Origin: Natrinema versiforme
GTDB taxonomy: Archaea > Halobacteriota > Halobacteria > Halobacteriales > Natrialbaceae
Reading direction: 5' to 3'
Assembly: GCF_005576615.1 (NCBI RefSeq)
Contig: NZ_CP040330.1
Coordinates: 2,604,001 to 2,668,000, forward strand
Length of the DNA stretch: 64,000 bases
Under the pieces are notes generated by a model. That model was not told the origin of the DNA. It made no database searches and saw only the letters and a list, made by a program, of their open reading frames with translations. The translations under genes and the position numbers were made by a program. Shown here piece after piece: positions 38,423 to 39,649 of the stretch; the stretch's first letter is position 1, and the number at the start of each line of letters is the position of its first letter.

Positions 38423-39649
38423 CTACTCGTCCGTTCGGAACGTCACAGAATTCTCGAGGTCGCGCGCACGCTCGAGCAGGTCCTCGATGTCGGCGTCCTC
38501 GGTCTCGCCCGAGACGGTGACGTGGCCCATCTTGCGCAGCGGCCGGACCTGCCGCTTGCCGTACCAGTGGAGGTGCGCGCCCGGCGTCTCGAGGACCCGG
38601 TCGATATCACCGAACTCCACGCGCTGTTCCTCGTCGACATCATCAGAATCGCTTTGCGATTCTGATTGGCTCGAAAGAGCGAAGCTCTTTCGAACGTCGC
38701 CGAGCAGGTTCGTCAGCACAGTCGGCGAGCGCAGTTCGGTCGAGCCGAGCGGCCAGCCCAGTACCGCGCGCGCGTGCTGTTCGAACTGCGAGCTCTGAGC
38801 GCCCTCGATCGTCCAGTGGCCGGAGTTGTGCGGACGCGGCGCGATCTCGTTGAGCAGGATCTCTCCCTCGCGCGTTTCAAATAATTCGATCCCATAGACG
38901 CCCCGTCCGTCCATTACTTCGAGCACGTCGCGCGCGACGTCGTAGGCGCGTTCCGCGGCCGCGTCGCTCGAGCGCGCGGGAACGATGGTTTCCCGGAGGA
39001 TCTCGTCGACGTGGACGTTCTCGCCGATGGGGAAGGTCGCGACCTCGTCCTCGCCTTTGACGGCGATAACCGAAACCTCGCGCTCGAAATCGACGAACGA
39101 CTCGACCATCGCGGGACCGGCGACGGACTCGAGGGCGTCCGCAGCTTCATCCTTCGACTCGACGGGAACGTTCCCGCGGCCGTCGTAGCCGCCCGTGCGG
39201 GCCTTGAGCATCACCGGCGCGCCGTAGTCGTCGATCGCCGCGCGGATGTCGTCGGCGTCTTCGACCGCGCGGAACGGCGGCACCGGAACCCCCGCGTCCT
39301 CGAGGTCCCGTTTCTGGACGAGTTTATCGTGAATCGTCTCGAGCGTCGACGGCTTCGGGTGAACGGGCGTGCCCGTCTCCTCGCTCACGCGCTCCATCAC
39401 GTCCTGATCCGCGAGTTCGATTTCGAACGTGAGCACGTCGGCGCACGCGGCGAGTTCGCGGATCCCCGCCTCGTCGTCGAACTCGGCGACGATCTGGTCG
39501 CGGGCCACGAGCGCCGCCGGACAGTCCGGCGTCGGGTCGAGCACGACCACTTCGACGCCAAGCGGCGCGGCCGCCTCCGCGAGCATCCGCCCGAGCTGTC
39601 CCCCGCCGACTACACCGATCGTCGGTCCCGGCGTCCGTAGCGTCGTCAT
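38423..39649 (-). CDS. purK: 5-(carboxyamino)imidazole ribonucleotide synthase, with palindromic insertion
   Basis: An ATP-grasp enzyme that carboxylates AIR with bicarbonate, 408 residues from the ATG at 39649. Motifs are GPTIGVVGGGQLGRMLAEAA, TFEIELADQ, MLKARTGGYDGRGNVPV and LLNEIAPRPHNSGHWTIEGA with QFEQHARAVLGWPLG. Residues about 336-352 (SFALSSQSESQSDSDDVDEE) have Ser/Asp-rich content unlike the rest and are encoded by two back-to-back perfect hairpins at 38642-38693. The reading frame is kept, so the enzyme is probably functional with a surface loop insertion. A TATA-like box supports the start. Confidence 0.94.
   Translation of the reverse strand: MTTLRTPGPTIGVVGGGQLGRMLAEAAAPLGVEVVVLDPTPDCPAALVARDQIVAEFDDEAGIRELAACADVLTFEIELADQDVMERVSEETGTPVHPKPSTLETIHDKLVQKRDLEDAGVPVPPFRAVEDADDIRAAIDDYGAPVMLKARTGGYDGRGNVPVESKDEAADALESVAGPAMVESFVDFEREVSVIAVKGEDEVATFPIGENVHVDEILRETIVPARSSDAAAERAYDVARDVLEVMDGRGVYGIELFETREGEILLNEIAPRPHNSGHWTIEGAQSSQFEQHARAVLGWPLGSTELRSPTVLTNLLGDVRKSFALSSQSESQSDSDDVDEEQRVEFGDIDRVLETPGAHLHWYGKRQVRPLRKMGHVTVSGETEDADIEDLLERARDLENSVTFRTDE
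38642..38693. repeat. Double-hairpin insertion inside purK
   Basis: The first hairpin has arms ATCAGAATCGC (38642-38652) and GCGATTCTGAT (38656-38666) with loop TTT. After the spacer TGGC (38667-38670), the second has arms TCGAAAGAGC (38671-38680) and GCTCTTTCGA (38684-38693) with loop GAA. Both are perfect. The block is in frame and encodes a Ser-rich loop. Such in-frame palindromes recall the Rickettsia palindromic elements in type. Confidence 0.85.

Follow-up and report, generated by a model that had tools for sequence, protein, structure and literature searches.

So far, protein-coding palindromes have been regarded as a trait of Rickettsia and of a few bacteria. The Rickettsia palindromic elements (RPE), bacterial sequences of about 150 bp, comprise several families that lie in frame in unrelated genes, essential ones among them, where they add a peptide (Ogata 2000, 2002, as outlined in PMC10969869 and PMC3733652). 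RPE-4 and RPE-6 are included among the dimers of CGTC-tagged REP sequences, which are bacterial and have stems of 8-9 bp, loops of 4-5 bp and most dimer partners 20-100 bp apart (PMC3733652). REP/REPIN sequences moved by RAYT are mostly extragenic, carry a GTAG tag and have a dedicated Y1 transposase (PMC3116915, PMC3733652). The haloarchaeon Haloquadratum walsbyi carries the PATE HqIRS46, 390 bp at full length with IS605-related ends, and SMR-A, of about 110 bp with inverted terminal repeats, which inserts into other mobile elements (PMC3119063).

We analyzed a window of 64,000 nucleotides from Natrinema versiforme, in which the purK gene holds a 57-bp insert built around two hairpins. This 54/57-bp block is very probably a single copy of a mobile, palindromic and non-autonomous element, widespread across the class Halobacteria. 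The relevant features are as follows:

38426..39649, minus strand: purK (N5-carboxyaminoimidazole ribonucleotide synthase), intact, 408 aa including the 19-aa insert
38639..38695, minus strand: 57-bp insert of 19 codons, delimited against empty homologues (PurK and ThpR empty-site comparison)
38696..38698, minus strand: target triplet GAC (Asp codon), directly 5' of the element and the commonest left flank of the family (61/121)
38671..38693, minus strand: hairpin 1 in purK sense, perfect stem of 10 bp, loop TTC (plus strand: GAA)
38667..38670, minus strand: 4-nt spacer GCCA between the hairpins, within the conserved GAGCCAATCAGAA core
38642..38666, minus strand: hairpin 2 in purK sense, perfect stem of 11 bp, loop AAA (plus strand: TTT)

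A preliminary description of this DNA had claimed two perfect tandem hairpins at 38642-38693, set in frame within an otherwise normal PurK and encoding a Ser-rich loop. Both the sequence and a repeat finder agree, placing the arms at 38642-38652 and 38656-38666 (11 bp, 100%, loop TTT) and, 4 nt away, at 38671-38680 and 38684-38693 (10 bp, 100%, loop GAA). The intact 408-aa product has the Pfam domains ATP-grasp (1.5e-54) and PurK_C (1.4e-16), and the frame used gives a Ser/Asp-rich loop. The hairpin coordinates were right, though the natural unit is slightly larger, at 38639-38695, and the two hairpins belong to one element rather than to two separate insertions. The insert is made up of a 54-bp two-hairpin element and a terminal triplet, which is GAT here and GAC in most copies. 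On the sense strand, with slashes at the insert junctions, it reads GAC/GTTCGAAAGAGC-TTC-GCTCTTTCGA-GCCA-ATCAGAATCGC-AAA-GCGATTCTGAT-GAT/GTC, where the 54-bp element runs from GTTCGAAAGAGC to GCGATTCTGAT. The 57 bp encode the peptide VRKSFALSSQSESQSDSDD; SFALSSQSESQSDSDD is an example from the element-encoded loop. With up to 3 mismatches allowed, either hairpin had a single occurrence in the window (its own complement aside) against an expectation of 0.00. No second tandem pair with both arms of at least 10 bp and 3-nt loops was present in the 400 kb of chromosome scanned, and single-strand folding of the element gave z = -5.8 (DNA) and -6.3 (RNA), with 0/200 shuffles as stable. Together, these three results exclude a chance origin of the purK hairpins.

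Absence of the hairpins elsewhere would have spoken against a repeat family, and related genomes do carry further copies, set in the same frame in different genes. A 400-kb comparison located a second copy in the genome of the closest relative (G068), in acyl-CoA dehydrogenase. A pattern search of 29 genomes of the genus then returned seven copies in four genomes, all in an open frame on the same strand and phase, hosted by PurK, acyl-CoA dehydrogenase, ThpR (2'-5' RNA ligase family) and an FAD oxidase. The covariance model R1, built from these seven coding copies, matched 120 of 125 Natrialbaceae genomes at E<=0.01 and, at E<=1e-5, 262 of 292 Halobacteria genomes in 70 of 77 genera. Within a phylum sample, for which the denominators are approximate, it matched 76 of ~81 Halobacteria versus 1 of ~312 other genomes. 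The same element in the same frame occupies PurK in the source genome (G000) and G068, ThpR in G060, G068, and G073, acyl-CoA dehydrogenase in G068 and G087, an ABC transporter in G081, and the FAD oxidase in G073, G094, G027, and G104. Further in-frame hosts are another PurK site, ArgG, ornithine cyclodeaminase, a P-type ATPase, a histidine kinase, a molybdopterin oxidoreductase, an aldehyde:ferredoxin oxidoreductase, MutS, and methylaspartate ammonia-lyase. Pfam confirmed all of these as hosts of in-frame copies (PurK at two sites), along with the acyl-CoA dehydrogenase, LigT/ThpR, ABC transporter, FAD_binding_4, and a helicase. Copies are thus carried by ~fifteen unrelated Pfam-confirmed protein families, of which those outside PurK, ThpR, acyl-CoA dehydrogenase, the ABC transporter, and the FAD oxidases (about ten, with MutS, ArgG, and methylaspartate ammonia-lyase among them) hold diverged copies.

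The source genome itself has 22 R1 matches at E<=0.01, most of them intergenic or in transposase genes. The preliminary description had proposed looking there for the arms in other coding genes: no exact second copy turned up in them, only GAGAGAGC-type hairpins, but a diverged 54-bp copy does lie in frame in methylaspartate ammonia-lyase (C2:2416587). A 58-bp copy at L219 lies upstream of a luciferase-like monooxygenase domain in a gene that is apparently broken, showing that out-of-frame insertions also happen. Copies were also seen inside TnpA, TnpB, and IS6-type transposase genes (L224, L232, L233, L235, L220, L225, L229, L231, L237, L243, and L244), some with an open frame on the antisense strand. 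Rfam 15 gave no match at the gathering score for nine loci, the purK copy among them; a sub-threshold match to sR-tMet at L196 is separate from the element. A viral origin was considered and set aside, with no match in viral contigs (searched with one exact pattern) or phage records.

Like RPE, the haloarchaeal element is palindromic, sits in several unrelated coding genes, keeps the frame with one frame preferred, and has sites that are empty in relatives. Compared by description, it differs from RPE in being archaeal, 54-57 bp long and made of two hairpins with 3-nt loops, and in its acidic Ser/Asp peptide and GAC-like target. The best reading is that the element is an archaeal analogue of RPE, and the earlier suggestion of a Rickettsia-like in-frame palindromic element is upheld as a likeness of behavior between descriptions. 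That description had also been aware of no haloarchaeal family of this form; we found no earlier account of in-frame palindromic elements in archaea in a literature that was mostly open access, where absence is weak evidence.

CGTC-tagged REP dimers share with the element paired short stem-loops, some of them intragenic and encoding 20-30 residues, heterogeneous stems and the lack of a linked transposase gene (PMC3733652). The minus strand starts with CGTC (GAC then G at the 3' end) in 102/121 copies, and with CATC (GAT) in the window copy. Unlike those dimers, haloarchaeal stems are about 8-11 bp with a loop of 3 and lie about 4-5 nt apart, and the window copy (loop 3, stems of 10 and 11 bp) falls outside the CGTC-REP dimensions. 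PATEs and SMRs, as far as excerpts of PMC3119063 describe them, are likewise haloarchaeal, transposase-free, palindrome- or inverted-repeat-bearing and without target duplication, and some copies of the element sit in tnpB, tnpA, and IS6-type genes, in the manner of SMR-A. The element has the PATE traits of palindromes close to the ends, with neither terminal inverted repeats nor target duplication nor a transposase ORF; what sets it apart, by these descriptions, is in-frame insertion in cellular genes, which the excerpts do not describe for PATEs or SMRs. With REP/REPIN it has in common paired short hairpins as the minimal mobile unit, but it lacks a tag of the GTAG kind and an obligatory Y1.

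We next considered reading frame across 121 copies, the top-scoring matches of the model built on coding copies, with coding status taken from codon scores over 300 nt on either side. Where both flanks were coding on one strand, 25 of 31 inserts had a length that is a multiple of three, compared with 30 of 90 elsewhere (Fisher p 6e-6); orthologous insertions in ArgG, P-type ATPase, and MutS are not independent in these counts. All 24 intact coding copies were in the sense orientation and phase 0 (16 of 57 bp, 8 of 54 bp). Read directly, the purK element is stop-free in four of its six frames. The use of one frame where four are stop-free points to selection for the peptide VRKSxALSSQSESxSDSDD, and not just against stops. 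A copy inside a gene would probably be retained only if it adds a whole number of codons and is read in its Ser/Asp-rich frame, and the host protein would then gain a tolerated, disordered, acidic surface loop.

The boundaries of the unit were read from empty sites and flanks. Empty ThpR sites read GGTGAC/GTSGACGAG, and filled ones GGTGAC, the 57 bp and then GTCGACGAG; copies in unrelated genes together with such empty sites suggest that the element is mobile. The unit has two hairpins with 3-nt loops, a GCCA- or GCCC-ATCAGAA core and a terminal GAC. This right-end GAC is present in 102/121 copies and the next base is G in 121/121, while the left flank is GAC in 61/121, GGC in 22, and GAA in 12, with flanks taken from model-aligned positions and a few possibly off by a base or two. 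Insertion sites are mostly (R)AC/G or GGC/G. From these counts, GAC belongs to the right end of the element and target duplication is unsupported; nothing is duplicated beyond the shared GAC. PurK and ThpR by themselves had suggested a 5-bp duplication (GACGT), which was rejected because GT is kept in acyl-CoA dehydrogenase, ArgG, and FAD oxidase despite a different downstream base. A classical MITE, with terminal inverted repeats and a target-site duplication, was likewise rejected: left and right triplets agree in 50/121 copies, mostly where both are GAC, and GGC is found 22 times on the left versus 4 on the right.

We suggest that the element moves as a folded DNA hairpin pair, that it would be joined 3' of a GAC-like triplet, and that an enzyme may be supplied in trans. 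The strongest competing account concerns that enzyme only and leaves the element's nature as it is: a minimal derivative of IS200/IS605 type, like the Haloquadratum PATEs or REP/RAYT, with fused end hairpins moved as single-stranded DNA by a Y1/HUH TnpA in trans. End palindromes without a terminal inverted repeat pair or target duplication are among the PATE features listed in PMC3119063, which also reports a 52-bp terminal-only PATE form; the element shows the same features and inserts 3' of a short preferred triplet, and the number of Y1 genes has a weak positive rank correlation with copy number (rho 0.21, p 0.018). Set against this, a Pfam search (PF01797) detected no Y1 gene in 32 of 125 Natrialbaceae genomes, some of which hold as many as 27 copies (G094 27, G025 24, G024 23, G074 22), and the presence of Y1 makes no significant difference to copy number (p 0.16). 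The end hairpins of the one IS605 element whose ends were read (L224) are of different sequence, and copies lie inside tnpA/tnpB genes rather than at their borders. Present-day carriage is therefore independent of Y1, and Y1 as a necessary partner is unsupported; movement by Y1 in the past is possible, and we regard the IS200/IS605-type derivation as conceivable but doubtful.

Alternatively, after rare insertions, the element could have spread mainly by homologous exchange of whole genes (horizontal transfer, gene conversion) and be hardly mobile today. Distant genera share an insertion site in the FAD oxidase (G073, G094, G027, G104) and in ArgG (G031, G050), as such exchange would predict, and the presence of the ThpR insert is patchy within one genus. 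About fifteen unrelated host genes nevertheless require copying between sites, and the source genome alone holds the 22 R1 matches, making exchange an unlikely main route.

The stems are maintained as Watson-Crick palindromes. Across 37 aligned copies, 94% of stem cells pair, compared with 34-49% in slid controls, and stem changes are two-sided in 127 cases versus one-sided in 5, where 33 two-sided changes were expected and 0/500 shuffles reached this; the alignment was fitted to the model, which favors pairing. Very few G-U intermediates are seen, a pattern more in keeping with DNA-level maintenance of the palindromes than with RNA structure. The loops vary freely (GAA, AAA, GGA, TTC, and others).

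At the purK site itself, we compared 80 named haloarchaeal PurK loci and 125 Natrialbaceae genomes. The preliminary description had left the conservation of the loop to an alignment of homologues, and the loop proves not to be a conserved PurK feature: almost all of the 80 loci have an empty site there, reading DV-DEE... without an insert. L080 has an unrelated 15-aa insert at this site. The same 57-bp insert was found only in the sister genome G068 (L115), where the element is 54/54 identical (window 38642-38695 in G000 versus G068:C2:433217-433282) and the flanking purK DNA is 86% identical, with third positions at 65%. In an AlphaFold2 model of PurK (mean pLDDT 86, pTM 0.86), insert residues 319-339 are the main stretch with pLDDT < 50, and they form a loop between strands 310-316 and 342-347 that is predicted to be disordered. 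The effect of the loop on enzyme function is expected to be close to neutral, although 54/54 identity against 86% in the flanks is more conservation than a neutral insert predicts and counts against an insert that is simply tolerated. That conservation, and the strong RNA fold (z -6.3), would suit an insert that is a functional or regulatory part of purK, as mRNA structure or as a protein loop with a role. We consider this improbable, since the insert is missing at the site in the other PurK loci examined, close relatives included, is predicted to be disordered, has near-identical counterparts in unrelated genes, and shows very few of the G-U intermediates that selection at the RNA level would allow.

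Template switching produces perfect palindromes with short loops, and the scarcity of one-sided changes hints that the stems may be subject to palindrome correction, but an origin of the hairpins in place (by template switching or quasi-palindrome correction) with no mobile family is highly improbable, because template switching would copy local sequence, whereas non-stem sequence and stem identity are common to unrelated genes and genera; this shared sequence contradicts de novo hairpin formation as the source of the insertion.

The mobile element described here is accompanied by a second in-frame two-hairpin family of about 51 bp, which encodes the peptide SAEPRSADDSSGQSPRE. A pattern search with CGCGGAGCnnnGCTCCGCGGAYGAYTCGAGCGGGCnnnGCCCGCGAGAG located it within open frames that encode many proteins, spread over 43 of 125 Natrialbaceae genomes (loci L388-L417), including two copies in the source genome, at G000:C2:2955086-2955118 (L413) and G000:C2:3383357-3383389. 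It is also present at purK reference position 259-261 in L036, L049, L050, L052, L055, L059, and L093. In-frame two-hairpin inserts are therefore not confined to one sequence family. Other PurK genes, from several genera, have tandem-hairpin inserts in frame at reference positions 199 and 259-261.

As a tentative extension, we propose that Halobacteria harbor, class-wide, undescribed two-hairpin mobile elements of at least two sequence families. These would include coding-adapted sublineages, with a length that is a multiple of three and a frame matched to acidic, salt-adapted proteins. They would be moved neither by a DDE transposase with target duplication nor by an obligatory Y1, and may be a standing source of surface loops in core enzymes. 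A class-wide archaeal counterpart to the bacterial elements, in culturable and genetically tractable hosts, would make the movement of such elements testable, as well as whether proteins gain loops from selfish DNA. It would also mean that a short, disordered and acidic insert in a haloarchaeal protein, a feature often interpreted as salt adaptation, can be a piece of mobile DNA.

Several further repeats were observed. A third in-frame hairpin-pair insert, AAERSSANREDTPRD, is located at purK reference position 199 in L034, L128, L057, and L068, and at this position in L112 one hairpin element is apparently nested inside another. A multi-copy intergenic sequence, GGGTGGGACTGAAAGGGGC...GCAAGCACCGCAG...GGGGCTTT, is not in Rfam for the loci tested. 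In some haloarchaeal genera, this repeat has 55-bp copies of the element in a fixed slot just before GCAAGCACC (repeat loci L148:16975, L192:974, and L196:12806; L311-L322, L368, L369, and L371). At L224:1020-1080, a further hairpin pair has been inserted close to the hairpin at the left end of an IS605-type element, a situation described for SMR-A in Haloquadratum. Finally, there is an intergenic cluster of six or more perfect hairpins with 3-nt loops (L147:9398-9700, at G000:C2:2511398-2511700; L236, L238, and L239), and parts of it recur in other genomes in a similar order.
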